From Arcobacter sp. (GTDB lineage Bacteria; Campylobacterota; Campylobacteria; Campylobacterales; Arcobacteraceae), in assembly GCA_002733685.1 (NCBI GenBank), contig NVWN01000009.1, positions 129,492 to 168,486 on the forward strand: a DNA stretch of 38,995 nt, written 5' to 3'. How positions within the stretch are numbered: the first letter of the stretch is position 1; each line of letters opens with the position of its first letter. The notes under the pieces are model-generated. The model made no database searches, was not told where the DNA came from, and saw nothing but the letters and a program-made list of their open reading frames with translations. This document shows positions 4,076 through 37,961 of this stretch, one piece after another. The position numbers were made by a program, and so were the translations under genes.

Positions 4076-5210
4076 TATTAATCTCTTTTTCCATAACACG
4101 TCTAATATCTGTTATGCTTTGTATTTCCTCATCTATTGTTGTGCTTGAGAACATCAATGCATTTGAATCTTTATGGTCAGGGTGAAAACCATGCATTCCT
4201 GGTATTACTTTTAATCCAAAATAACTGGGATTGATTAATATGCCAGGCTTGGTTAAAAAGAATACTTCTCCAAAACGATTACCTTCAAAAAAAACATGCA
4301 TTCTTTTTAACTCATCATGTGTAACTATAGAACCTTCTTCAACATTTTCAAGAATTTCTAGTATTTTTATTTTTGCATTTTCATTCATAAACCAGAATCT
4401 GGCCATGGTAGAATCATACATTGCAACATAATCTTTTCCGTACTCTAAATTAATTTCTTCTATAGAAGAAATTAAATCAATACTTCCTTTTGTATCACAC
4501 ATTCCATGATCACTAAAAATATGAAGGCTTACTTCATCATAATGATTAAGCGCATGAAGGTATACATCTTGGATTTGTTCTTCTAACCATAAAAGTTTAT
4601 TTTTGGTCTCATCTTTTTGTGTACCATAGGTATGCATAACACCATCAAGGGTAGGCAGATATAAATAAGTAAATTCTATTTCTTTTTTTTCTATTTCTTT
4701 TTTTAAAACCTTGATATTATAGGTTTCACTTTTTCTCCAGTTGGAGCAGTGGTAAGGAATATTATTGTCCACACACCAGTCAAAAATGGTATCTGTTTTT
4801 AATATTCCGTTTGGTACAAAATAGTCTCTTTTTTCGAGATAATCAAAATAAGGAAGATATTTAAAAGGCACACTGTAAAGCTCAAAATATCCCGTATAAC
4901 CATAAAATATTTTTATTAATTTACTCAAATAATGTCTTGGTCTAAAACGATCAAAAATTTGTTTGGGCAAAAAAGCCAAATATTTAAAAAACTTAAAAGG
5001 AGAGTTTTTAGGATCGTAATAAAAACTTGACCAGTGAGTATGTTCATCCGGGTAACGTCCCGTAAGAATGGATGGATCAGCTGCAGATGAAAAACCAAAG
5101 GTAGTTTTTAAAGGTTTTGCATCTTTTATAATTGAGAGATTAAAACCATGTTTTTTATAAACCTCCCAGCCAAAACCATCAATAAAAACAAAAAGTGATA
5201 ACTTTTTCAT
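4062..5210 (-). CDS. Alkaline-phosphatase-fold phosphodiesterase (ENPP-like)
   Basis: The 382 aa protein shows the metal-ligand pattern of the type I phosphodiesterase/nucleotide pyrophosphatase group: FVFIDGFGW at the N-terminus, ADPSILTGRYPDEHTHW around residues 44-60, LPTLDGVMHTYGT, IFSDHGMCDTKG and PGMHGFHPDH. I cannot assign the nucleophile with certainty; it lies in or next to SSAADPSILTG. No signal peptide is evident, so it is probably cytoplasmic. It is the first gene of the EPS operon in transcription order, with ribosome site AAAGGAT upstream of the ATG. Such genes occur in polysaccharide clusters, where they may act on phospho-sugar or lipid-linked intermediates. The substrate is unknown. 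Confidence 0.78.
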   Translation of the reverse strand: MKKLSLFVFIDGFGWEVYKKHGFNLSIIKDAKPLKTTFGFSSAADPSILTGRYPDEHTHWSSFYYDPKNSPFKFFKYLAFLPKQIFDRFRPRHYLSKLIKIFYGYTGYFELYSVPFKYLPYFDYLEKRDYFVPNGILKTDTIFDWCVDNNIPYHCSNWRKSETYNIKVLKKEIEKKEIEFTYLYLPTLDGVMHTYGTQKDETKNKLLWLEEQIQDVYLHALNHYDEVSLHIFSDHGMCDTKGSIDLISSIEEINLEYGKDYVAMYDSTMARFWFMNENAKIKILEILENVEEGSIVTHDELKRMHVFFEGNRFGEVFFLTKPGILINPSYFGLKVIPGMHGFHPDHKDSNALMFSSTTIDEEIQSITDIRRVMEKEINNEKR

Positions 5211-5354
5211 ACTACATCCTTTTTTATATTTTTATGATTGTAATAAGTAAGTGTGCAAACAAAATGCAAAAAAGAATAGGAATTTTTATCGAATATACAG
5301 AGAAAAAGAAAACTCTTTAATTTCTTGTGATTGTATATCTTTGATTTATTTTAG

Positions 5355-5400
5355 ATGGCAGGTTTTGAGCTCTTGTGCTGCTAGTGCATTTCGCTTCTTT
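5355..5400. repeat. Isolated end-module of the structured intergenic repeat
   Basis: The stretch around TTTTGAGCTCTTGTGCTGCT followed by AGTGCATTTCGCTTCTTTT resembles the left part of the large repeats at 9680 and 24964 (TTAAGAGCTCGTGAAAGCTA then GCGCATTCG). The inner stems of the full element are absent here. The rest of 5211-5449 upstream of the EPS operon shows no gene I can support. It should contain the operon promoter, but I see no convincing -35/-10 pair. Confidence 0.4.
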
Positions 5401-5449
5401 TGTATATTAAATGATTTAGGATTGTATCTCTGGAACTTTCTTGGGTACT

Positions 5450-5677
5450 TTATATATCAATAAGCGTATCAAAAATATCGCTTTGTCGTTTTCCTATTTT
5501 CTTTTTGTGAAATATGGATGTTTTTTCTGTATTTTCACTTTCAGATTTAAGTTGAAAATCTATACTTTGTTTTTCAAAAGCTTTTTCTATGTAATGGGAA
5601 AAATCTACATTATCTTTACAAGTATGATTTAAGAGTGAACTTTTCTTACAAGAATTTGTATTGTTATGAATTTTCAT
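5450..5677 (-). CDS. Small hypothetical protein, 75 aa
   Basis: An unrecognised 75 aa protein. The main support is a good ribosome site (AAAGGAT, 5 nt before the ATG at 5677). The product is hydrophilic and charged, with two cysteines near the N-terminus (SCKKSSLLNHTCKD) and a C-terminal basic stretch HKKKIGKRQSDIFD. There is no membrane segment, signal peptide or known domain. It stands alone between the EPS operon and a lipoprotein gene, all on the minus strand. It could be a spurious frame in AT-rich DNA, but the ribosome site argues for translation. Confidence 0.45.
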   Translation of the reverse strand: MKIHNNTNSCKKSSLLNHTCKDNVDFSHYIEKAFEKQSIDFQLKSESENTEKTSIFHKKKIGKRQSDIFDTLIDI

Positions 5678-5934
5678 ATTTATCCTTTACTAGGATTATA
5701 TTGCACTTATGTGAAGAAAGTGTTTATTAAAATTATTAAAATTACTCTCTTTTTTATGTTAAGAAACTTCTATTCTTAGACTAGATAAAGAGTTAAAGGG
5801 GACAGATTTTTATTTGAGCGTTTTGCTTACTATAGTAATATATGAATTTTTAGATTCTAAGGATTAATGATAACATTTAGATACGAGGCAAGACTAGTTT
5901 ATAAGGGATTTAAATTTAACTGCAATGCATTTAC

Positions 5935-25313: not shown

Positions 25314-25620
25314 GCAAAATAATCTTTCATTAGGCTCTTTCCCTGACTTTGAGAAAGCTAAATCTTTTTATTTGTTAGCGGAAAAAGGTGAAAACTGTTA
25401 GAGCGTAAGAAATGTGCTCTTTAGCACGTTTTAGTGAGTTTTTGAACCTAGCTAACAAATAAAAACATTTAGGAACCCGAAGGGCTTTATCAATGTGTCA
25501 GTTGCTTCTTTTTGTTTCTTTTTCTGACAATTAAGAAAATGATGCCGGAATGAAATGACTAAATTCTGCTTGCAGACCAAAAAGCGCAAAGGTTACTTTG
25601 TATGAGCTCTTAAAACTACA
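25314..25620. repeat. Diverged, inverted copy of the structured repeat (R3)
   Basis: Opposite in orientation to R2 and lying 36 bp from it. It keeps the apical hairpin GTGCT-CTTT-AGCAC (25414-25427) inside a longer stem TTATTTGTTAGC/GCTAACAAATAA, then TGTCAG/CTGACA around a pyrimidine-rich loop, and ends with TATGAGCTCTTAA like the other copies reversed. Most other positions have diverged. The 901-nt gap 24958-25858 holds only R2 and R3 plus AT-rich sequence leading to the lipoprotein gene. Confidence 0.6.
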
Positions 25621-25858
25621 AGTTGTAAGCTTATTTTTGTACATTTTAAAACAAGTGAATAATACATTAATTCGTTTATTAAATAAATTAAAGGTGGCAA
25701 CTATCTCCATTTATTCTAAATAATAGTTAACTTCTTTTAATACATAAATTAAGGTTTACTAACCCCTTTATTTTTAGATATTAAAACGATATTTCCGAAA
25801 TAAGTATAATAATAACTACAAAAGTTATATAAAGCTATAATTAATAAAAAGGAAATGT

Positions 25859-26956: not shown

Positions 26957-28234
26957 TTATTCTTTTATATCTTTCATATATTCAATAACTAATAAAAGTT
27001 GTTCAATTCTATCGTGAACATTACTTTGATAGTCATTACAAAAATCTTTTCTTACTTTATTTGTTTTTAGATCATCTATATTATTTAGTTTATTTAATAT
27101 TTTTTTTGAAATGTTTTTGAACTCTTTTATAAACATTTTTTTATCTATGGCCATTTGTTTACAAAACCCATAAAAGTCATAAGCACTTAATTTTTCAAAA
27201 GAAAATTCATTATCAATTGCCATTGCCATTTCATGATCATAAGTTTCATATAAAGTAATATTTACAATATCATAGAATGGTGCTAGTTTTATTCCTTTTT
27301 CATCTATTATAAAAGATATATTCTTTCCATGTGCATCACTATTCCCTAAACATAAATTTACACAAATCCATTTAATAAGTTCTTTTTTTACAATAATAGG
27401 GCTTTGACAAATATTTGCTAAATTAAAAAGTTTTTTATAACTTACCCCTTCTCTTATATCTTTTACATCTCTACTTGATCCAAAGTTTCTTTCATATTTA
27501 TATGAAACGGGTAAATTTAGTGCTTGGTTTGAATCAATGATATGTATTCTTTTTACATATTTATTTTCTAAAAGAATTCTGTCAAATCTTTTAACTTGAA
27601 GTACTTCTTCTTTAGAAATATTTACTATCTCACTATTGGCAACATTTAATCCAGCGCTATTAGCTAACATCAAAGATAAGTGCTCATTTAAAACTAAGTT
27701 TTCATTAGTGGTATTAAATTTTAAAATATGAGTAGATGCTAAGTCTCCTTCTCCAAAACCATACACTCCCTCAATTATTAAGACAGGCAATTTTTCTTGA
27801 ACGCCTGCAATACTTAATCTGGGTTTTCCATCCCAAATAGCCAGTGGTTTTTCTTTTCTTTGTTCAATTCTCAAAGAAAGCAATTCTTTTGAGATTTTAG
27901 TAAAGGAAGTTTCTTTTGTTTTATTTTTTAATGAAAAGGTTAATGCTCCCGTTGTTTCAGCACCAATAATACTCAAAAGAGAAAACTTATTTTGTTTTGA
28001 GAGATGATAATATTGAGTTAAAATTTCTAAACCATTACCCTCTGGTAGTAGATTTTCAATAAAATTCTTTATTGTATTAGGTGAGATTTCTTCTTCAAAC
28101 ATTAAACTAGGAGATAATTCAAAACCTGTTTCTATCCATTGTTTATTGTATTGGAAATTAAATTCATTTCTGGGCGCATCATAAATAATAATACCAACAT
28201 TTTTATCTTCATAAAATATATTTAATTCATTCAT
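26957..28234 (-). CDS. hipA: HipA-type serine/threonine kinase toxin
   Basis: The 425 aa protein has the HipA layout. The N-subdomain includes NLLPEGNGLEILTQYY and GAETTGALTF. The kinase P-loop SIAGVQEKLP at 141-150 has Ser141 at the position of the regulatory autophosphorylated Ser150 of E. coli HipA. HILKFNTTNE and VKRFDRI follow, then the catalytic loop GNSDAHGKN (Asp300) and the metal-binding YDIV (Asp322). By family it phosphorylates a tRNA synthetase or another translation factor and causes growth arrest unless held by HipB. All catalytic residues I can identify are present. It follows hipB by 3 nt on the minus strand and ends just before an att-like remnant. Confidence 0.93.
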   Translation of the reverse strand: MNELNIFYEDKNVGIIIYDAPRNEFNFQYNKQWIETGFELSPSLMFEEEISPNTIKNFIENLLPEGNGLEILTQYYHLSKQNKFSLLSIIGAETTGALTFSLKNKTKETSFTKISKELLSLRIEQRKEKPLAIWDGKPRLSIAGVQEKLPVLIIEGVYGFGEGDLASTHILKFNTTNENLVLNEHLSLMLANSAGLNVANSEIVNISKEEVLQVKRFDRILLENKYVKRIHIIDSNQALNLPVSYKYERNFGSSRDVKDIREGVSYKKLFNLANICQSPIIVKKELIKWICVNLCLGNSDAHGKNISFIIDEKGIKLAPFYDIVNITLYETYDHEMAMAIDNEFSFEKLSAYDFYGFCKQMAIDKKMFIKEFKNISKKILNKLNNIDDLKTNKVRKDFCNDYQSNVHDRIEQLLLVIEYMKDIKE

Positions 28235-28237
28235 TTC

Positions 28238-28480
28238 TTACTCCACAAACGTTTTAAGACCAAGCATCTTTGATATTTTTAAAGCAGTTGATAATCTAGT
28301 ACCTTCATTACCATTTTCAAGTTTTTTTAATGTTAAATGATTTACATTACATAAAGCTGCTGTTTCTTCTAAAGACAAACCTAAAGATGTTCTTTTATGT
28401 TTTACAAAATCTCCAAATATTTTAGTATCACTAATAATGTTAGAAGTGGGTTTTTTTGAAAGAATAACCTTTTTAGCCAT
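28238..28480 (-). CDS. hipB: HipB-type HTH antitoxin/repressor
   Basis: The 80 aa protein has a Cro/CI helix-turn-helix in GDFVKHKRTSLGLSLEETAA followed by NVNHLTLKKLENGNEGTRL and STALKISKMLGL. This is the HipB arrangement, preceding its toxin hipA by 3 nt. HipB neutralises HipA and represses the operon. AAGGAAT lies 5 nt before the ATG. Three TATAC-N4-GTAT-like inverted repeats lie upstream and are likely its operators. Confidence 0.9.
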   Translation of the reverse strand: MAKKVILSKKPTSNIISDTKIFGDFVKHKRTSLGLSLEETAALCNVNHLTLKKLENGNEGTRLSTALKISKMLGLKTFVE

Positions 28481-28619: not shown

Positions 28620-28772
28620 GTTGATTCACATTAGAAGTGCAACGTTAAGAAGTTAAGATAGTAGGGTGGTTAAATGTTATAAATAAATGGTATAGATGGG
28701 GACAGTTGCCAGCTTCAATTTTAAAAGAATACTTTTCAATAAATTAATATGAAATATAATAGAAGAGTATGA

Positions 28773-29050
28773 AAGGATTGTTATTGATTCTTTTAATTAA
28801 AGAAGAGGGCTATTTAACTCTTTTTTTCAGTCTTATCATTAGTTTTATCAGCGTCATCACTATCTTCATCCATATTCATAAAATAATCCATAGCTTTTTG
28901 CTCTTGATATTTCTTAAAACGATAAATAAAATAAATTGTAAGTGCAATATCTGCTAATATAAATAAAACAAATTCTATTTCCATTTTTAACCTTGTATCA
29001 ATAATATTTAGATGATTTTTTGTGAATTTTATAAGTGGTACCCGTAGACG
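28773..29050. repeat. Direct repeat flanking hipBA, copy 2
   Basis: Matches 26656-26935 over its length, with most differences in the acidic tail of the encoded protein. It ends in the att-like sequence TGGTACCCGTA at 29036-29046. Together the two copies bracket hipBA. Confidence 0.75.
28814..28984 (-). CDS. Small single-pass membrane protein, 56 aa, copy 2
   Basis: A paralogue of the protein at 26697. Residues 1-39 are identical, from MEIEFVLFIL to AMDYFMNMD. The acidic tail differs (EDSDDADKTNDKTEKKS) and is one residue shorter. At the DNA level the shared part shows synonymous changes only (for example ACC/ACA and GCC/GCT). It lies between hipB and the att-like boundary of the integrated element. 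Function unknown; the conserved part is the membrane helix and its basic cytoplasmic flank. Confidence 0.75.
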   Translation of the reverse strand: MEIEFVLFILADIALTIYFIYRFKKYQEQKAMDYFMNMDEDSDDADKTNDKTEKKS

Positions 29051-29055
29051 GACTA
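29036..29055. repeat. Attachment-site copy at the far end of the element
   Basis: TGGTACCCGTA, two differing bases, then CGGACT. It aligns without gaps to the tRNA-Leu 3' end at 37875-37894. A weaker copy is at 26923-26935. Confidence 0.7.
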
Positions 29056-29105
29056 GTAATCTCTACATGAACTACATATCAGTCTTTCCTTAGAATATAT
29101 TTTAT

Positions 29106-29129
29106 AAAAGGCAACAAAAGGGCAACATC
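29106..29129. repeat. Paired GGCAAC repeats, likely integrase arm site (left)
   Basis: AAAAGGCAAC followed by AAAAGGGCAACATC. The same sequence with one base difference is at 37738-37761 in the same orientation. It lies about 50 bp inside the att copy. Such short direct repeats near both ends are typical integrase arm-type sites. Confidence 0.7.
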
Positions 29130-29138
29130 TTATTAAAC

Positions 29139-29759
29139 TTACCATCTTTCTGGTTTCGTAATAGTTTTCCCTTGATAGCTTATTCTATGGGGCAAAATAC
29201 TATTTTTAAGTTGTTTCTCACCTATTTTTATAGTTGTAACTTTACTTCTTATTTCTCTTGCAATTTGGTATCTATTTGGTGGAGTTAAAACCATTATTTC
29301 TTTATGTGGAAAGCTCTTCTTAATCATTTCTATTACAGGTACCATATCAGAGTCCGATGTAACAATAATTGCTTTGTCAAACTTATCTAGATGTGCATTT
29401 TGAAGTAAATGTATACACAAGTTTACATCACTTTCTTTTTCTTCATGTGTTTCCCATGTAGCATTGCAACTTAGACATCTTTTTGTCTTTTTTTTGAAAT
29501 GACCTAAGATAATTTCTACATTATGTGCTTTTAATGCATTGATGTAATTTTCATGTCTTTTGCATGATTTCGGCAACCATTTTGCATAAGCTGAAAAATA
29601 ATAAACATTATCAAGTATTTCTGTGGAGGGTTTTATATATGCATTCATTAGTAAACGTAAATCTAGCCATTTGTAGTATTTTTTGGAGGAGTCTTTTTTT
29701 GTTAGTGTATCTATTGCGTGATACAAATTAAATCCATCGATAAAAGCTTGTACTCGCAT
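29139..29759 (-). CDS. NYN-domain (LabA/DUF88-like, PIN-fold) protein
   Basis: The 206 aa protein starts with the NYN motif VQAFIDGFNLYHAID and has the acidic residues expected for a PIN-like metal site: ESDVNLCIHLLQNA and IIVTSDSDMVPVIEMIKKSF. A CLSCNATWETHE segment with the earlier CKRHE could bind zinc. NYN proteins are probable ribonucleases; several are linked to phage defence or RNA processing, but the specific role here is unknown. It is the last gene at the far end of the integrated element, 84 nt from the att copy, a common place for cargo. A terminator-like hairpin lies directly upstream of its start. Confidence 0.85.
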   Translation of the reverse strand: MRVQAFIDGFNLYHAIDTLTKKDSSKKYYKWLDLRLLMNAYIKPSTEILDNVYYFSAYAKWLPKSCKRHENYINALKAHNVEIILGHFKKKTKRCLSCNATWETHEEKESDVNLCIHLLQNAHLDKFDKAIIVTSDSDMVPVIEMIKKSFPHKEIMVLTPPNRYQIAREIRSKVTTIKIGEKQLKNSILPHRISYQGKTITKPERW

Positions 29760-29782
29760 TTTTTCTCTCTTATAAATAAAAA

Positions 29783-29827
29783 AACCCAGCGCACAGGCAA
29801 CTGGGTTACGTAAGCTAATAACTTACG
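29783..29827 (-). terminator. Leader hairpins with terminator just before the NYN gene
   Basis: On the minus strand, CGTAAG/CTTACG (29827-29822 with 29814-29809) is followed by AACCCAG/CTGGGTT (29807-29801 with 29789-29783) and a run of seven T. The NYN start codon is only about 20 nt further on. This looks like an intrinsic terminator ending a short leader transcript, either as an attenuator for the NYN gene or as the end of a small RNA starting near 29840. Confidence 0.7.
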
Positions 29828-29843
29828 GGATGATCATGTAGTG

Positions 29844-29876
29844 ATTATAATACACATTAACTTAATGTATTATAAT
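29844..29876. promoter_or_regulatory. 33-bp palindrome with 11-bp perfect arms
   Basis: ATTATAATACA and TGTATTATAAT are exact reverse complements separated by 11 nt. It contains -10-like TATAAT in both directions. It could be an operator for a dimeric regulator, a recombinase site or a replication-initiator site. It lies between the leader terminator and the iteron block. Confidence 0.6.
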
Positions 29877-29977
29877 TCATTCGATTAATTGGGGTTAATT
29901 TAGATTAAGTAGGATTAATCTAGCTTAATTAGGAGTATTTATATATGTACCCTCCTGTACGTTTTCCTATATCCCCC

Positions 29978-30256
29978 TGTCTTAACGTCTTAATTGTCTT
30001 AATCAGGATTAAATAATTACTAAAATTACTTATAATTGGAAAATATTCATTTTTTGTCTTAATTGTCTTAATCATGTCTTAACGTGAATTAAAAACATAA
30101 GCCTATGAATAGGGCTATATATAGTAAAAAAGATATATATTTATTTATATTAAGACATTAAGACACTATACCTCTATGTTTTACTTTTTACTCCTATTCC
30201 ATATATATTACGTTAAGACAAAGCGTCTTAATCTGTCTTAATTGTCTTAATCAGGA
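29978..30256. repeat. Iteron-like GTCTTAA repeats, putative replication origin
   Basis: About a dozen copies of GTCTTAA lie in 280 bp. They are often paired as TGTCTTAATTGTCTTAATC (29995, 30055-30071, 30235) and preceded by ACGTCTTAATT; some are inverted (TTAAGACATTAAGACA near 30149, GTTAAGACA near 30212). Each long block ends in CAGGATTAAAT or CAGGAATTAAAT. The surroundings are extremely AT-rich. Clustered iterons in an element that encodes a helicase-primase-like protein suggest an origin of replication. Confidence 0.6.
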
Positions 30257-30385
30257 ATTAAATATTTCTCAAGTAGAAAAAACTAAATATGTTAAAACTA
30301 ACTTTTCTTGAGTAAATTGTGTTCTTTATTCATAATGTATGTGTAAGTGCTTATATAAGTTTTTTTACATAAATATAACAATGGA

Positions 30386-30480
30386 GTTCTTTTTTTCCGT
30401 ATACGTAAAATAGTGGCGTTTATGAGTAGTAATTACTTTAACATTTGTGTGATTCTTTTACACAGAAATTACTCCAGTCT
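30386..30480. repeat. ~90-bp direct repeat in the element, copy A
   Basis: Contains TTTATGAGTAGTAATTACTT then TAACATTTGTGTGATTCTTT and TACACAGAAATTACT. It aligns with copy B at 31138-31232 over about 90 bp at roughly 70% identity, 750 bp away. It includes inverted pairs GTGT/ACAC and AGTAATT/AATTACT, so it can form a stem. Confidence 0.55.
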
Positions 30481-31137
30481 GTACACATGTTTGAATAAAA
30501 TTGTACATATATCATTTTCTGTTTTTTATTTCCTGTTTCCTGTTCCTGTTCCCTGTTAACAGATTCTGTCCTGTTTTCTGTTGACGTAGGTTTAATTACA
30601 GAATCAGTCACAACAACATCGATAAAACCAGTCTTCTTTAAGAACAATATTACTGCAGTAACCATAACAGGATATTGGATAATTATCTTACTTGAGGTTT
30701 GATATTCTGTATTAATAGTTGTATGCTTTTATTGTTCAATAGTAGAAAGGGCTCTTTAAAATCATTTTTATGTGAAATGGAATGGAATTTATATTTATGT
30801 GTTTGCAAGTTAGATGTAGGAGGAGTAAATTTATGATTATAGAAGATAAGTTTTTATAAATATTAACTTTTTTTTTCATCAATTGTAGCTGCTACTTGAT
30901 ATAGCATTAAATGTATTTCACATGATAAGTAATATGTTTAGTGCTAGCCTTAATTTCTTAAAAGAATTTATCAACACAAAGAATCTTTTTCTCAAGGAGA
31001 TTATATACTACTTGTTAGCCTAAAATATATTTTTGAATAATCCAATATATGAAAGTTCATGTTAATTTGAGTAGTTTGTATTCTTTCCTCGTAATATCTT
31101 TTTTACTATGTGTGTTGGGTTTTTACACAGATATGAG

Positions 31138-31232
31138 AGATTAGACTTTTTTATTCACGTACACTATATAGTAGTGCTTATGAGTAATCATTACATTAAC
31201 TCTTGTGTACTTCTTTTACTCATAAATTACGA
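31138..31232. repeat. ~90-bp direct repeat in the element, copy B
   Basis: Contains CTTATGAGTAATCATTACAT then TAACTCTTGTGTACTTCTTT and TACTCATAAATTACG. See copy A at 30386. A 62-codon open frame overlapping this copy starts with GTG and is not convincing as a gene. Confidence 0.55.
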
Positions 31233-31793
31233 GAATATGTGCGCAGACTTGTGTGGCTTTGTGTAGATATGTATTTTTTAGTTACACGTATTTTCTTTAC
31301 TTTGTGCCTTTTGTTTTATGGGTATGTAATATATATAATATGCTGCCAAATTCATATAAAGAGTTTTAATTTTATGATGATAAAAATATGAATATATTTA
31401 ACAAGTATCTTGGTTTATTTTACTCAAAAGAACTATTCAATTATTTATAAAAATAAACATTTTTAGCGTGATAAATATTATTTTTATGCTTTGTCCTGGT
31501 GTAAATTGCTTGAGAGATTTATGCAGCATAATTAGATCAGTTGCTGCAGCAAAATAAAACTCTACAAGTACCATAAAATAACACTTCTTGAAAATGAATA
31601 AATACGTATCTATGATAATAGATTAAATTAAATTCAAAATAAGTACATTTTTATAACTTTTTTCGCCCAAAAATATCACTAAATAGTAACCTTACTTTCG
31701 TTATTTATTTCTTGCAGGACAGGTCAAAACAATTTTAATATTGTATAGATTTTGTTATATCGAAATGAACGTGTTTATGATAGTTATTTTTAG

Positions 31794-31825
31794 TTGAGTA
31801 ATGCAAATAAGGCTACATTACTCAA
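31794..31825. terminator. Inverted repeat after the XerH-like gene
   Basis: TTGAGTAATG (31794-31803) and CATTACTCAA (31816-31825) are exact reverse complements with a 12-nt loop, 15 bp past the recombinase stop codon. There is no T-run after the stem in the direction of transcription. It may end transcription or be a recombinase-related site. Confidence 0.45.
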
Positions 31826-31840
31826 GAGATAGTATTAGAT

Positions 31841-32881
31841 TTATAGGTCATCCATTATTAATGCTGCTTCTTTTAGTCTTGCGGTATCAAAATGTGTGTA
31901 GATTCTTGAGGTATTAATATTTTCATGCCCTAGAAGCTCTTGTACAAGAACTAAGTCTTTAGTTTTCTTATATAGCCTTGTAGCAAAAGTATGTCTTAAT
32001 AAATGCGGTCCATTTTTCCCCTTCTTTAATTTTGCGAGCCTTAATATATTATTCATATGATGATAAACTGTTTGTTGATTGAAGGCTTCTCCTTTTGTTT
32101 TAAAGAGCAATTCATTATCTTGGAGTTCCGGCTTAGTTTTACTTGTAAGGAAAAATTTTAGGATGTCTTCTTTTATCATTATAAATCTTTCTTTATTTCC
32201 TTTTCCAATGATTTTTATTACATAAGATAACTCATCATGAGTTATGTCTTTAAGACGTATATTTACTACTTCATGTACACGCATTCCAGTATGCAGAATC
32301 ATTTCAATTAGAATAACCATAATACTTTTTTTATACGATATTTTTCTATATTCCTCCAGGGCATTCATAAATTCTTTTATTTCTTTATCGTTTAAATATA
32401 TTGGAAGTTTAACTCCACTATTTCCTCTTAGTCCACCCCAGTTATTTAGTGAGAAGTTGAACTTACAGTCAGCTCTTTTATCAAGATAATTAAAAAAGTT
32501 TGAAATTACCCTAAGATGATTTTTTTTTGTTGCGTCAGCGAGGGTACACGTGCTTTCATATAAAAACTGCGATACAAAGTCTTCATCTATTTGATTAAGA
32601 GAGACCATGGGTATATTCTCAATATATAAGTGAAACTTTTTCATAACAGTAAAATAAACATTTGTTCCAGCTAATCCAGCTTTTCTAACTTGTTTCATAT
32701 AAAAGTCTAATTCTTGGATTGAGTGTGTACCCGCTTTTATTTTTACTGTAGCATTATCAAGTAATTTCTTATTTTTTATATCTCTTCTTGTAAGTATATT
32801 AATCTTATATTTCATATATTTCTCTATCCATACGAGTAAACTATCTTGTGGTCTTTCTTTGCAATTTAGTATATTATTCAT
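31841..32881 (-). CDS. XerH-like tyrosine recombinase
   Basis: I choose the ATG at 32881 (346 aa) because AGGAGAACAG lies directly before it; an in-frame ATG 15 nt upstream lacks this. The catalytic set is complete: Arg201 (HTGMRVHE), Lys227 (GKGNKERF), His293 and Arg296 (HLLRHTFATRLY), His319 (LLGHENINTSRIYTHF) and Tyr328. The N-terminal pattern (LDFYMKQVRKAGLAGTNVYF) and the end (KKTKDLVLVQELLGHENINT) closely resemble XerH of Campylobacterota, which resolves chromosome dimers at dif. Being inside a mobile element that already has an integrase is unusual. A role in resolving element multimers or in using dif-like sites is possible. Confidence 0.88.
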   Translation of the reverse strand: MNNILNCKERPQDSLLVWIEKYMKYKINILTRRDIKNKKLLDNATVKIKAGTHSIQELDFYMKQVRKAGLAGTNVYFTVMKKFHLYIENIPMVSLNQIDEDFVSQFLYESTCTLADATKKNHLRVISNFFNYLDKRADCKFNFSLNNWGGLRGNSGVKLPIYLNDKEIKEFMNALEEYRKISYKKSIMVILIEMILHTGMRVHEVVNIRLKDITHDELSYVIKIIGKGNKERFIMIKEDILKFFLTSKTKPELQDNELLFKTKGEAFNQQTVYHHMNNILRLAKLKKGKNGPHLLRHTFATRLYKKTKDLVLVQELLGHENINTSRIYTHFDTARLKEAALIMDDL

Positions 32882-32889
32882 CTGTTCTC

Positions 32890-34695
32890 CTAACATTCAA
32901 TAATAAAGGTTGTTTTTTCAACTTTTTCAAGTTTGAAAATGCCTTGCTCAATTAACTCATCTATTTTTTCTTTATTTAAGCCTCTTATATTATTTGTTGC
33001 ACTAGATTTTGTAATTCTTTTTTCTTTTGTTGCTCTAATCTTTTTTAGAAGTTTTTCTGCTACTGAATCAATTTTGAAATTTAATAGCTTGTTTTTTTGA
33101 AATAACTGTAGCACCTTGTTACTTTCTTCTGTGAAGATGTTCATGATAAAAATACCTTCCTCTATGTACTCTAAAGGTATCTCTATTAACTTACTATTCA
33201 CTACGTCTAGTTTTTCGTACGCATTATTAAAAATATAACTCATAAGTGCGAATTTAAGTGCATAGGTTGAAAGTCTGTATGTTGCCGTTAGTTCTTCATC
33301 TGTTTCAGTGTCATGAGCACTTTCACTGTACTCATTAAACCATAGAGTAAAATGATTTTCTGCTTCTTTGCTTAGTTTAAATAATACAGGTTCTTTTCTA
33401 TCAAACTCAAGCATATTTATAACAAAATTACCTACTTCCTCATAAATTGATGTCTTTATATGTAAAGGTTTTATTTGAAGGGGTTTAAAGTCTGCTCGAA
33501 TGTTATAACTAAATAAATACCTAGCCATAAAACCACTTGCAATATCGTTTTTGTTGGTTGCTTCTAATAACCATTGTTCGGTAATTAAACCAATTTCGGA
33601 TAGTACCGGTCTTTTAACAATAATACTACCCCCATTTACAAGTCTTTTATGAATAAGTTCTACATCAAATATAGATGTTTTTGTAGCTTTGTATGATCTA
33701 TCATTATTGGTTCTTTCAAGTTCTGAACGCATTTCATCATAATAGATAATTCCTCCATTTTGATTCTCTTGAAGAGATTTTATCTTCGCTTCTGGAGTAC
33801 CATCATTTTGGAATATTAATAGTTTCGGCTCAGGTTTATCAGGTTCAATTTCATTCTTTTTATCATCTTTTGATAATTCTCTAAAGTTCTTTTTATCAAG
33901 TTCGTATTGTTCTGTTTTTTTTTCATATTCATCATAAAAGTCTGTTTGTAGATTTCCAAAGATACATTTTTTAGTATATTTATACAAAGTTGACTTGGCT
34001 CCTGCACTTGAGGGGGCTATGACAATACTCCATATTATTGGATAGACGGTTAAATTTACATTGTTTGTAATTTGTGCACGTCCTCCAATTAATCCACCCA
34101 TAGAAGTTAGTACAGTAGAAAGTACCATACTAATTGGGTAGTCGTTTATCTGTGCTAAGTCCTGTACAATACTTTTAATAAATGGAGTGAATTTACTTAC
34201 ATCAATTTCCATTTTATTGGAACTTTTTTTATTTTTTGTTTTATATAAATTGTTTAGCTTTAGTAATTCACTATTGAGCTTCTCAATGCCACTGGAGGCA
34301 CTTAATGTAGTAGTTCGTGCATTTTGAGCCAAAGAGGAAGAGATACGAAGCATTTCACGTTTAATGTGATCTTCTTGCATACTTTTTATATAGGCAGAAA
34401 GGTTTGTAATTGGATTAGCACTTAATATATCTATTAAAACATTTTCGTGACGGCTATCATTAATATCTTTCTTTATAAACTCTTCATCAATAGGTTTCTC
34501 TTCTTTATGTAGCTTCAACATGCTTTTAAATATCATTTGATGTGTTTCCATGAAAAAGGTCTCAGGCTTGAGAGAGTCATGCATTTTATCAAAAGTGTTA
34601 CTATTAAAAAGAAAAGAACTTAAGACTGCTCTTTCTACATTTAGAGTACTTGTCACATCACTTTGAATATTTTGTTTATCTGTGTTAGAATTCAT
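32890..34695 (-). CDS. DnaB-N plus DUF3987 helicase/primase-like protein
   Basis: The 601 aa protein begins with a DnaB N-terminal-type helical domain (about 18-110: ERAVLSSFLFNSNTFDKMHD, then LKPETFFMETHQMIFKSML and EEKPIDEEF). Next comes a DUF3987-type ATPase core with an altered Walker A, APSSAGAKST (227-236), where an Ala replaces the expected GK spacing. The Walker B is GGIIYYDEMRSEL (Asp320-Glu321). Such proteins occur in phages, satellites and integrative elements and are thought to support replication. The C-terminal 70 residues are basic and may form a winged helix. It precedes the XerH-like gene with 8 nt between stop and start, so the two are co-transcribed. Confidence 0.75.
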   Translation of the reverse strand: MNSNTDKQNIQSDVTSTLNVERAVLSSFLFNSNTFDKMHDSLKPETFFMETHQMIFKSMLKLHKEEKPIDEEFIKKDINDSRHENVLIDILSANPITNLSAYIKSMQEDHIKREMLRISSSLAQNARTTTLSASSGIEKLNSELLKLNNLYKTKNKKSSNKMEIDVSKFTPFIKSIVQDLAQINDYPISMVLSTVLTSMGGLIGGRAQITNNVNLTVYPIIWSIVIAPSSAGAKSTLYKYTKKCIFGNLQTDFYDEYEKKTEQYELDKKNFRELSKDDKKNEIEPDKPEPKLLIFQNDGTPEAKIKSLQENQNGGIIYYDEMRSELERTNNDRSYKATKTSIFDVELIHKRLVNGGSIIVKRPVLSEIGLITEQWLLEATNKNDIASGFMARYLFSYNIRADFKPLQIKPLHIKTSIYEEVGNFVINMLEFDRKEPVLFKLSKEAENHFTLWFNEYSESAHDTETDEELTATYRLSTYALKFALMSYIFNNAYEKLDVVNSKLIEIPLEYIEEGIFIMNIFTEESNKVLQLFQKNKLLNFKIDSVAEKLLKKIRATKEKRITKSSATNNIRGLNKEKIDELIEQGIFKLEKVEKTTFIIEC

Positions 34696-34768
34696 TACTT
34701 CTTACCTTATGTTATTTGCCGAATATTTTGGAGAGTGTTTATTTAAATGCTCTCCAAAGTACTTCTAA

Positions 34769-35011
34769 TTATTCATATTTTTTTATGTAATACTTACTTG
34801 TAATAAAAACAAACCCACCAATTAATATTAGTTTTTCTAACTCCAGTGTTTTGCTTCTTTTGTTTAGCAGCTTTGATATAGCAAACTTTATTCCTAAACT
34901 TATTGCTGTATTGGTTAGTATTTGCTTGATATTAATTTCTTTTTTAGAAAGTATATTTTTAGATACACTTAATACAATATTCGATATATTGTTACTTGTA
35001 CTTATATTCAT
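34769..35011 (-). CDS. Small protein with C-terminal membrane segment, 80 aa
   Basis: An unrecognised 80 aa protein with a good ribosome site (AAAGGGG, 7 nt before the ATG). It has an amphipathic N-terminal half (NIVLSVSKNILSKKEINIKQ), a moderately hydrophobic helix (TAISLGIKFAISKLLNK) and a clear membrane segment LEKLILIGGFVFITSKYYI near the C-terminus. It lies 73 nt upstream of the DUF3987 gene in the same direction. In phage-like elements, small membrane proteins in this position can be exclusion, lysis-control or replication-anchor factors, but nothing in the sequence decides this. Confidence 0.55.
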   Translation of the reverse strand: MNISTSNNISNIVLSVSKNILSKKEINIKQILTNTAISLGIKFAISKLLNKRSKTLELEKLILIGGFVFITSKYYIKKYE

Positions 35012-35112
35012 ATAATGCCCCTTTGGTATTTATGAGTATTCTTCGTCTTACTAATTGCTGTTAGTAAGATGAACACCTAAAAAAAATCATATTGTGCCTT
35101 TCTTATTAGCTT

Positions 35113-35307
35113 TTATAATTCTTCAATATATTCACGAACTAGTCTTTTTTGTGTTTGTTTTCCAATATTTCCATACCTACCATAATGCTTTGTAACTATT
35201 GCTCTAGTCATAGTAAAATCATTAAGTATGTAGTCAACTAGGTTACTTGCTAATTGCCCTTTTTCTAATTCGGCTCTTAGTCTTGCATTTAAATCTAATA
35301 AGTCCAT
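35113..35307 (-). CDS. Small hypothetical protein, 64 aa
   Basis: The 64 aa product (LNARLRAELEKGQLASNLVD, then YILNDFTMTRAIVTKHYGRY) is charged and helical with no membrane segment. Its ATG at 35307 directly follows the stop codon of the HTH gene, and the ribosome site AAAGGGG lies inside the end of that gene. The pair is therefore translationally coupled. TMTRAIVTKHYG could be a small helix-turn-helix, but I do not recognise a family. Likely a DNA-binding or accessory factor of the element. Confidence 0.6.
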   Translation of the reverse strand: MDLLDLNARLRAELEKGQLASNLVDYILNDFTMTRAIVTKHYGRYGNIGKQTQKRLVREYIEEL

Positions 35308-35520
35308 TTATTCCCCTTTCTCTATATTTACACGTCCACTTTCTATCATTTCAATTAAGTCAGATTTTTTATATAAAATCTTTCTACCTCTCTTACAAAA
35401 AGGGAAACCTTTTTTAAGTGACCTTGCAACTGCAAGACTTCCAACTGATGTATCTGTAAAGATAGAAGTCTCCTCAATAGATAAATATTCTTTATCCAAA
35501 TTAATCGTAGTATATTTCAT
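35308..35520 (-). CDS. Excisionase-like helix-turn-helix protein
   Basis: The 70 aa protein has the layout of HTH_17/excisionase (AlpA/MerR-like) proteins: YLSIEETSIFTDTSVGSLAV, then RSLKKGFPFCKRGRKILYKK and SDLIEMIESGRV. The last part is the wing and the final helix. AAAGGAG lies 5 nt before the ATG. In small integrated elements such proteins direct excision or regulate early genes. It is the first gene of the replication/recombination operon, downstream of a 265-nt promoter region with an inverted repeat. Confidence 0.78.
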   Translation of the reverse strand: MKYTTINLDKEYLSIEETSIFTDTSVGSLAVARSLKKGFPFCKRGRKILYKKSDLIEMIESGRVNIEKGE

Positions 35521-35605
35521 TTAATCTCCTTTAAACATAATCATTATGTACAATAAAAGCTTAATAATGTATTAATATTGATATTAAAAGGATAATTCTA
35601 GTAAA

Positions 35606-35636
35606 TAAGTACTATATAAAGCTTATTTAGTACTTA
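35606..35636. promoter_or_regulatory. Inverted repeat upstream of the HTH operon
   Basis: TAAGTACT (35606-35613) and AGTACTTA (35629-35636) are exact reverse complements 15 nt apart. A further AAGTAAGTAC lies at about 35662. They are in the 266-nt gap before the HTH gene and are a possible operator for it or its partner. Nothing else is seen in this gap. Confidence 0.4.
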
Positions 35637-35786
35637 AAGTAGGTATAAAAAATCCTTGATTAAAGTAAGTACACAATAAATAAGTTATTTGCACTTTTTA
35701 TTAATTTGATTGTATTTATGTAGAATATATAATATAGAAGGGGGAGTAAAAAGTAGGCTTTGTAAAATTGATTTGGCTATATATTA

Positions 35787-36584
35787 TTATAATATGAGCG
35801 GCTTAAATTTTATATTATTCGTCATTTTAATTTTATCTTCTGCTTCTTGATTAGCTCTATATATTTGTGAGGTATTTCCATTATAAAGCATAGTAGCTAG
35901 TTTTTTTATCGTTTCTTTTTTATTTAGTTCTATAATATCTCCAAAGTCATTAAATTCTTGAAGCATATATCTTATGCTGTCTTCTATTGATATGTAATTG
36001 AATATATCATAAATAAAAAGTCTATCTCTTTCGGTTTTTTTAATTAATCTTTTATTTGAGACATTTAATTTATCTATTGTAAAGTGCATATTAAAATATT
36101 GAAGAAATGCAATTTCATTTAAGCGAACAGTTGCTTTAGATAGGTTCTCATATGCTTCTATTGTTAATACTTTACCAGATGATTTCAGGCCATATACGTA
36201 AAAAAGTGTAGTTAAATGTTTAGGTAGCACTTCATCATAATTGCTATTTCCTTTAAGATAAAATAAATTATATGACCTAAAAAAGTATAAAAGAGCTATG
36301 TCTTCTTGAGAAAGAGAATCATAATATTTAAAATAGGTCTTGTATAAAGAAAGCCAATCTTCTTTTGAATAACTATCCATTTTTGCAAGAAGTTTATTAA
36401 TATCAGCATAGTGTGGAAGAAGATATAATGGATAATATTCATAGTATCTATCATCAACAGGTACTAAGTAATTTTTATATTGGTCATAAGTTCTTTCAAT
36501 TTTATACCACTCTTTAATTGGAATAATAATATGAGTTGGTTCTCCATCTTCTATGTCCGATATATATTGTGGATAAAAATCCAT
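35787..36584 (-). CDS. Hypothetical element protein, 265 aa, co-transcribed with integrase
   Basis: I do not recognise this protein. It is rich in Tyr, Asp and Leu and mostly helical, with no signal peptide or membrane segment. The N-terminal stretch GEPTHIIIPIKEWYKIERTY resembles the short beta-helix start of Phd/YefM-type antitoxins, but the remainder (LAKMDSYSKEDWLSLYKTYF, RLIKKTERDRLFIYDIFNYI) has no match I can name. AAAGGA precedes the ATG. The gene starts 21 nt after the integrase stop on the same strand, so the two are likely one transcript. Position suggests a control or cargo (for example defence) function; this is unproven. Confidence 0.65.
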   Translation of the reverse strand: MDFYPQYISDIEDGEPTHIIIPIKEWYKIERTYDQYKNYLVPVDDRYYEYYPLYLLPHYADINKLLAKMDSYSKEDWLSLYKTYFKYYDSLSQEDIALLYFFRSYNLFYLKGNSNYDEVLPKHLTTLFYVYGLKSSGKVLTIEAYENLSKATVRLNEIAFLQYFNMHFTIDKLNVSNKRLIKKTERDRLFIYDIFNYISIEDSIRYMLQEFNDFGDIIELNKKETIKKLATMLYNGNTSQIYRANQEAEDKIKMTNNIKFKPLIL

Positions 36585-36605
36585 TGTATTCCTTTTTCTT
36601 TATAA

Positions 36606-37703
36606 TTATATTTTACTTTGTTTTTGTTCAATTTTATTTAAATCATCAATTATATCTTTGTTTGATAAATCTATATACCGTTGAGTGGTTTTAATATCTT
36701 TGTGTGTCATCGTTTTTTGTATTTGAAAGGCATTTAAGCCATTTCTTGCAAGTACTGTGCCAAAATGATGCCTTAGGCTATGTAATGGTCTATATTCATC
36801 AGGAAGGCCTGCTTTTAATTTCATTTTTACTGCATGATAAGATAATCTACTTTTTCCAATAGGAACACCTGGACGTTGTTCAAAAATATATTCTTTACTT
36901 AGTCCTTTTTGGCTTTCTATAATGCTCTTAGCGTTATTTGATAAGTAGTATATTTCATCATGTCCACTTTTTGCATCTACTATTTTTACTGTACTATTGA
37001 CAAAAGAATAATGCTTCCACTTTATCTTAAGAGGTTCTGCTCTTCTCATTCCAGTTGTATATATTAGCTTAACAATTTTAGCAATTATTTGATCCTCATA
37101 ATTATCTATAACTTTTAGGTAATCTTCAATCATTTCATCAGAGTAGGTCTCTGTTATTTTATTGTTTTTAATTTTTCTATTAAATCTGATTATAGGTCCA
37201 GATTGTATATAGTCTGAGGCTATTGCATGATTAACTACTCTTTTAAACATAGAATAGACTTTTTGGAATGTTTGCTCCGTAATACCTTTTTCAAGCATAG
37301 TTGAATAGACTTTTTCAATATCTTTTGTATTGATATCTTCGATATTTTTAGTAAGTAGAAAGCTAAAATGATTGATAACTCTTTGGTATTCTTCTTTTAC
37401 TGCTTTTAATGTATCTTTTTTATCTTCATGCCATTTAGTTGTTAAGTATTGTAGGGTAAGATTTTTTTGTGTATGGCTATTAATACCGTATTTGATTTCG
37501 TATAAAATATCATTTCTAATTTGATTTGCTTTTGTTGCTGTCATTCGTTGTGATTTTTTTCCAACAGACTTTTTTTTCTGCTTGCCATCACTTCTATAAA
37601 TCACATAATAAGATAAGTCAGGTACCTGTCCAATAACACTAAGTAGTTCTTTGTAATAGACACCTTCATATTTTGTTTTATGCATGAAATTATTTTTAGA
37701 CAT
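36606..37703 (-). CDS. int: Phage-type tyrosine integrase of the element
   Basis: The 365 aa protein has an N-terminal arm-binding region (YYVIYRSDGKQKKKSVGKK, about 32-50), a core-binding domain (about 80-180) and a catalytic domain. Its residues are Arg220 (TTGMRRAEPL), Lys245 (DAKSGHDE), His308 and Arg311 (PLHSLRHHFG), His334 (MTHKDIKTT) and Tyr343 (QRYIDLS). AGGAG lies 6 nt before the ATG. It begins 172 bp from the tRNA-Leu 3' end, with GGCAAC direct repeats between them. It should therefore be the recombinase that inserted the element at this tRNA. All catalytic residues are present, so it may still be active. Confidence 0.92.
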   Translation of the reverse strand: MSKNNFMHKTKYEGVYYKELLSVIGQVPDLSYYVIYRSDGKQKKKSVGKKSQRMTATKANQIRNDILYEIKYGINSHTQKNLTLQYLTTKWHEDKKDTLKAVKEEYQRVINHFSFLLTKNIEDINTKDIEKVYSTMLEKGITEQTFQKVYSMFKRVVNHAIASDYIQSGPIIRFNRKIKNNKITETYSDEMIEDYLKVIDNYEDQIIAKIVKLIYTTGMRRAEPLKIKWKHYSFVNSTVKIVDAKSGHDEIYYLSNNAKSIIESQKGLSKEYIFEQRPGVPIGKSRLSYHAVKMKLKAGLPDEYRPLHSLRHHFGTVLARNGLNAFQIQKTMTHKDIKTTQRYIDLSNKDIIDDLNKIEQKQSKI

Positions 37704-37737
37704 TTGTACTCCTAAAAAGGTAACAGCAGTTTATCAC

Positions 37738-37761
37738 AAAAGGCAACAAAAAGGCAACATC
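37738..37761. repeat. Paired GGCAAC repeats, likely integrase arm site (right)
   Basis: AAAAGGCAACAAAAAGGCAA then CATC. It is almost identical to 29106-29129; a related AAAAAGGTAACAG is at 37714. It sits between the integrase start and the tRNA. Confidence 0.7.
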
Positions 37762-37874
37762 CCAATTGTATTCTAGTTAATCCTATGGTATTCTAATTAA
37801 TGTAAAGGTTTTGAGGGAATCGTGTTAGTGTATCGTATTTAACTCTACTTAATCTCTTGTAATGTTAGTGTTTA

Positions 37875-37961
37875 TGGTACCCGTACTCGGACTTGAACCG
37901 AGAAGACCGTGAAGTCACCGGATTTTGAATCCGGCGTGTTTACCAATTTCACCATACGGGC
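37875..37961 (-). tRNA. tRNA-Leu (anticodon CAA)
   Basis: The minus strand reads GCCCGTATGGTGAAATTGGT at the 5' end. It has an anticodon stem-loop CCGGA-TTCAAAA-TCCGG giving anticodon CAA, the long variable arm of class II tRNAs, GGTTCAAGTCC in the T arm and an acceptor end TACGGGT-A-CCA. The length is 87 nt and the CCA is encoded. G1 pairs with U72 as a wobble. A TATAAT -10 box lies about 12 nt upstream (37973-37978). The 3' end is the attachment site of the integrated element and is intact, so the tRNA should be functional. Confidence 0.95.

Follow-up and report, generated by a model that had tools for sequence, protein, structure and literature searches.

A 38,995-bp stretch of Arcobacter sp. 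DNA (the window) contains an 8,839-bp element that is inserted precisely at the 3' end of a tRNA-Leu gene and leaves that gene intact. We consider the element to be a complete and probably functional phage satellite that is similar in plan to the phage-inducible chromosomal minimalist islands (PICMIs) of the Vibrionaceae (PMC10803314), and assign this reading a probability of roughly 60%. The reading rests on an empty site in a genome of the same genus, on a core gene order, att duplications and arm sites that recur in six elements, on the agreement of that order with the one in PICMIs, on the small size (8.8 kb) and on a slot for defence genes. A first-pass annotation of this DNA had proposed an 8.85-kb element of Campylobacterota at tRNA-Leu with an att duplicate, an integrase, an excisionase-like regulator and a replication module; the element is real, and the description is borne out by the empty site and by five complete relatives.

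The tRNA-Leu(CAA) gene is the sole tRNA gene found in the window by ARAGORN. The features at and near the ends of the element are listed below, where G087 is the genome of the same genus that has the empty site.

29036..37874: inserted element, 8,839 bp with the att core counted once; empty site in G087
29036..29055: distal att, a degenerate copy of the tRNA-Leu 3' end; exact 11-bp core at 29036-29046
37875..37961, minus strand: intact tRNA-Leu(CAA), with the proximal att core at its 3' end (37875-37885)
29104..29127, minus strand: predicted distal arm-type sites, paired, 11 bp apart (GGCAAC double repeat at 29106-29129)
37736..37759, minus strand: predicted proximal arm-type sites, paired, 11 bp apart (GGCAAC double repeat at 37738-37761)
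37710..37725, minus strand: predicted third arm-type site, just upstream of int

In G087, the adjacent bases 268277 and 268278 correspond to window positions 29035 and 37875, with a left flank that is 92% identical and ends at 268277 and a right flank that is 95% identical and starts at 268278. Because these flanks adjoin, a site without the element exists and the inserted unit is 29036-37874; the tRNA gene is unbroken with and without it. The insertion proposed earlier therefore stands, with its extent of 29036-37894 corrected to this unit, and the comparison with relatives lacking the insertion that had been suggested as a check gave an exact join of 29035 to 37875 and no differing junction. 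The empty site also rules out that the element is fixed chromosomal DNA. The replication gene is absent from the two other genomes of the genus as well, in which the left flanks are not comparable. The distal att consists of TGGTACCCGTA (29036-29046, 11 bp exact), two mismatches and then CGGACT, the degenerate duplicate that had been read at the far side. An empty site, an att duplication and an integrase gene beside the tRNA thus occur together, as in site-specific integrative elements at tRNA genes.

The DNA beyond the distal end has several features of its own. Parts of a dispersed repeat lie at window 25500-25542 and 25579-25621; many near-identical copies (43 nt, 91-98%) are present in the source genome and in G087, the parts often side by side. 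A gene for a HipA-like kinase with an HTH gene just upstream (26957-28480), by sequence reading a HipBA-like pair, lies beside the element, and most of this segment is unmatched at the DNA level at the empty site of G087. Just outside the element, window 28723-29019, which holds a 56-aa ORF, occurs twice in G087 (266139-266434 and 267954-268277), a local duplication beside the attachment site.

The main genes of the element all lie on the minus strand, the single-strand set that had been described, and are given here from the tRNA toward the distal att together with the region that holds the putative origin:

36606..37703, minus strand: integrase, a tyrosine recombinase of 365 aa (PF00589, 1.6e-23)
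35787..36584, minus strand: 265-aa core protein (weak RelB-like N-terminal match in 4/6 members)
35308..35520, minus strand: HTH_17 protein of 70 aa, AlpA/excisionase-like (PF12728, 5.1e-5, below the Pfam cut-off; six-member alignment)
35113..35307, minus strand: small protein of 64 aa (candidate homologue in all relatives)
34769..35011, minus strand: small protein of 80 aa (gene of similar size in the same place in G065)
32890..34695, minus strand: replication protein of 601 aa (DnaB N-terminal domain, 18-105; DUF3987 NTPase, 187-528; six-member alignment)
31841..32896, minus strand: second tyrosine recombinase, XerH-like, 351 aa (PF18644, 4.2e-34; PF00589, 9.4e-31)
29760..31840: long stretch poor in genes, present once in the genome and containing the iteron module
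29978..30250: origin-like iteron module with TTAAGAC/GTCTTAA in 12 copies (geometry shared by five relatives)
29139..29759, minus strand: NYN-domain protein of 206 aa, cargo, candidate defence gene HEC-09 (Pfam NYN, 3.9e-12)

Relatives identified by the replication protein are found in two of the 104 genomes of the host family, G065 (a Halarcobacter MAG) and G073 (an Arcobacteraceae MAG), so that 3/104 genomes carry an element. A second family of the same order has complete relatives in G344, G174 and G461 and one fragment in G553; "six complete elements" here refers to the window element and the five complete relatives, with the G553 fragment left out. All six have the core order tRNA, integrase, 265-aa-type protein, HTH_17 protein, small protein and DnaB-N/DUF3987 protein, and cargo precedes the distal att; G073 is an exception in that a KAP NTPase gene and the iteron module lie between int and the 265-aa homologue. 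The targets are tRNA-Leu (window element and G073), tRNA-Thr (G065) and tRNA-Ser (G344, G174 and G461), the exact duplications of the tRNA 3' end are about 11 to 17 bp, and the elements are about 7.5 to 9 kb. The 265-aa gene is found among the 104 family genomes only in the three element carriers and, among 399 genomes of the order, a close integrase is found only in the carriers sampled. The elements form a coherent, sporadic family, of which we found no published description; our literature search also returned no paper on satellites, integrase and phage in Campylobacterota. In the G553 fragment (L063), an IS3-type transposase gene abuts the truncated replication gene. A small, apparently membrane-bound protein encoded on the opposite strand recurs in similar form in each of the four elements from the second host family (L055 9846-10019, L056 9997-10185, L062 8236-8412 and L063 1705-1923) and is absent from the window element.

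The long gene-poor stretch and the small size could also be those of a decayed prophage or the remnant of a larger island that is no longer mobile, but the compact layout is the same in six complete elements, both recombinases are intact, the empty site is clean and there are no phage structural remnants, which makes decay very improbable.

The catalytic residues of the integrase (R, H-x-x-R, H and Y), noted earlier as complete, are invariant in an alignment of six relatives. The near-identical GGCAAC double repeats that had been seen inside both ends are also real: the distal and proximal repeats are 96% identical, and pairs of TGTTRCC about 11 bp apart occur at both ends in all six elements with some substitutions. 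The integrases of the two host families are only 36-40% identical and the layout of these sites is nevertheless kept, which fits arm-type sites; the pairs are predicted to be the arm-binding sites of the integrase. The 265-aa protein had been taken as candidate cargo, a role that is ruled out by its presence in all six complete elements, always on the int side of the HTH gene. Its gene lies next to int in five of the six (other genes intervene in G073); in G344 and G174 the two genes share 8 bp, an overlap with int that iolg of PICMIs also has. The 64-aa protein is 14-52% identical to its candidate homologues, the lowest value not being significant alone. Structure predictions from three-row alignments were of low confidence, with a mean pLDDT of 47.7 for the 265-aa protein and 38.2 for the DUF3987 protein.

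The replication module had been recognised in the first-pass annotation without its iterons. TTAAGAC, counted on both strands, occurs 12 times within 300 bp, as compared with a mean of 1.0 and a maximum of 3 in shuffled sequence. A control using the best 7-mer of any kind did not discriminate, as shuffled sequence is equally dense in some 7-mer; the case for iterons therefore rests on the motif-specific shuffle and on the conserved geometry. In gene direction, the core consists of two copies in inverted orientation, 8 bp apart, and then three direct copies spaced 9-11 bp, the triple beginning 72 to 82 bp past the pair. G065 and G073 have the same layout and motif, the module of G073 lying elsewhere in the element. 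The iteron type TTAAGACA of the window element is replaced by TTATACA in G344, G174 and G461, where the triple is at +72/83/92 or +83/94/103, two classes one helical turn apart; only one member of the pair is recognisable in G344. The iteron sequence thus differs between the host families and the geometry is kept in all six. Since the iterons change together within an element while the geometry persists, this pattern suggests that they co-evolve with an initiator, plausibly the DUF3987 protein. The module is a putative origin.

In DnaB, the N-terminal domain contacts the DnaG primase. No primase domain was detected in the replication protein by domain profile searches, so priming is likely to depend on recruitment of the host DnaG. 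A helicase function in mobile elements has been predicted for DUF3987 (PMC5862659).

A gene-poor stretch of this kind could instead house an oriT. The element would then be a relaxase-less integrative mobilizable element (iOriT), whose excised circle would carry an unrecognised oriT and be transferred by the conjugation system that a helper plasmid or ICE provides. Such elements exist (PMC11389934), and there is no packaging gene to favour a phage route. However, no relaxase was matched, the gene order is that of a satellite family, and the sole conserved feature of the stretch is the iteron array; we regard mobilisation of this kind as unlikely. Searches of Pfam and NCBIfam matched neither a virion family nor the relaxase expected of an IME or ICE in the element, in agreement with the earlier statement that packaging and transfer genes could not be recognised.

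The gene inventory given earlier was right about the integrase and left the second, Xer-type recombinase unnamed. Its gene overlaps the replication gene by 7 bp, and its catalytic residues are invariant. Each of the six complete elements has a second tyrosine recombinase, which belongs to one or the other of two distantly related types. The XerH-like type (PF18644), in the window element and G065, overlaps or directly follows the replication gene. The other type is a shorter Xer-like enzyme, only 22-26% identical to the first. Its gene follows the replication gene in G073 and precedes it in G344, G174 and G461; G073 has this short type, yet its other core genes group with the window element. 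The types have been exchanged and are lost in none of the six, which suggests from sequence comparison that the function is needed, and multimer resolution is the most economical proposal for it. The PF18644 domain is shared with XerH, the chromosome recombinase of Campylobacterota, and the homologue in genome G000 (contig C28) is 43% and 41% identical to the second recombinases of the window element and G065, respectively. In contrast to XerH, the second recombinase is encoded inside the element, is coupled to the replication gene and is substituted by the shorter Xer-like type in four relatives. A search for dif-like palindromes established no recombination site; the one good candidate, at about 31795-31824 just downstream of the gene, has no counterpart in the relatives and could be a terminator.

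The cargo slot holds the NYN gene (HEC-09) in the window element and other defence or toxin-antitoxin genes in the relatives: KAP NTPase (PDC-S49-like), DNA methyltransferase, a DUF3800 protein (PDC-M04A), a YafQ-type toxin and MNT-HEPN-like pairs, the last named by reading of the sequences. The NYN protein matches PADLOC HEC-09 over its full length (4.5e-57) and, as expected of the cargo it had been proposed to be, is found only in the window element among the six. The HECs are candidate defence systems embedded in Hma, and activity has been shown for several of them, HEC-06 included (PMC12988326); in a Pseudomonas study, HEC-09 correlated with susceptibility (PMC12447246). On the satellite reading, the NYN protein probably shields its host from phages.

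The genes of PICMIs are int, iolg, alpA, up1 and prim, and defence genes lie between prim and fis. Excision requires int, iolg and alpA, replication requires prim, and the islands are packaged as concatemers by a virulent phage (PMC10803314). The iolg/icg gene overlaps int or is contiguous with it, and comprises 13 unrelated families (PMC10803314). The element has the same order of int, a gene beside int, an alpA-like HTH_17 gene, a small gene, a DUF3987 gene, a defence slot and a distal att; it is also small (8.8 kb; PICMIs, 6-9 kb) and without a capsid or packaging gene. The PICMI search model asks for int, alpA (PF05930/PF12728) and a primase (DUF3987/DUF5906) in one place (PMC10803314), and PF00589, PF12728 (E of 5e-5, below the Pfam cut-off) and PF13148 (DUF3987) are co-located here. 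For its authors, integration next to fis is a hallmark of PICMIs, and they found complete PICMIs only in Vibrio (PMC10803314). The present family differs in its targets (tRNA-Leu here; tRNA-Leu, -Thr and -Ser in the relatives), its host phylum (Campylobacterota), the DnaB N-terminal domain of its replication protein and the extra Xer-type recombinase in every member. As the fis hallmark is lacking, the element is a PICMI-like variant and not a PICMI, and the 265-aa gene is the positional counterpart of iolg.

P4-like satellites combine an integrase at a tRNA gene, an AlpA-like regulator, a replication protein and origin iterons; the alpha protein of P4 has its own primase, and P4-like satellites have capsid-size or decoration genes. 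The element shares the first four features, its iterons lying in an origin-like module, but no primase domain or capsid gene was matched in it. Tycheposons have a tRNA-targeted tyrosine recombinase, a replication module, cargo and no structural genes, an anatomy that the element shares in a different phylum. Tycheposons have been named as proposed marine satellites (PMC11389934).

Several results stand against the satellite reading, namely the lack of a fis target, the make-up of iolg, a set of unrelated families to which the 265-aa gene corresponds in position, and the outcome of searches for phage relatives. IMG/VR contained no real relative of the replication protein, the 265-aa protein or either iteron type, and INPHARED no full relative of the element; no helper phage, cos or pac site was identified, no packaged copy was found in these viral collections, and no helper came to light through a second copy of the gene-poor stretch (29760-31840), of which the genome has none. 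A scan of IMG/VR with the integrase brought up nothing closer than distant integrases, including one in a tailed phage. This nearest viral integrase, on contig L064 (IMGVR_UViG_3300021978_000002, 4259-5915), is 28% identical, shares the N-terminal TKYEGVY motif and is encoded directly after an HTH_17-like gene. With no link to any phage found, and with an iteron module, replication protein and resolvase-like recombinase that are plasmid-like, the element could be an autonomously replicating integrative element, tycheposon-like or plasmid-like, that spreads without a dedicated vehicle by vesicles, natural transformation or generalized transduction and uses its Xer protein as a plasmid-type resolvase. 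The match to the PICMI gene order, including the genes in the alpA-like and iolg positions, argues against this, and the sporadic presence (3/104), the size of about 8 kb and the defence cargo suit a satellite equally well; we find such spread rather unlikely. It and relaxase-free mobilisation are the live rivals.

Transfer as a satellite is the mechanism that we favour. The word satellite, used in the first-pass annotation, is plausible and best backed by the PICMI gene order, and its phage-transfer part is what we infer. The integrase would bind the conserved arm sites and recombine the 11-bp core, and the AlpA-like HTH_17 protein and the 265-aa protein encoded beside int would direct excision. 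The excised circle may then replicate from the iteron module, where the DUF3987 NTPase would open the DNA and its DnaB-type domain may recruit host DnaG. Because virion genes and a relaxase are both lacking from the element, it is proposed that a helper phage packages the replication product, as in Vibrio PICMIs. The Xer-type recombinase would resolve multimers that arise from replication or from incoming packaged concatemers.

How one integrated copy arises from a packaged concatemer is a question that the authors of the PICMI study left open (PMC10803314), and the second recombinase could answer it. Tentatively, the elements may be a separate Campylobacterota family of tRNA-targeted minimal satellites with their own Xer-type multimer resolvase (types exchanged, lost in none of the six) that turns packaged concatemers into single copies, and with a fixed origin geometry whose iterons change in concert with the initiator. 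The minimal plan of PICMIs would then be present in another phylum and at other targets, in a family of elements that moves candidate anti-phage genes.
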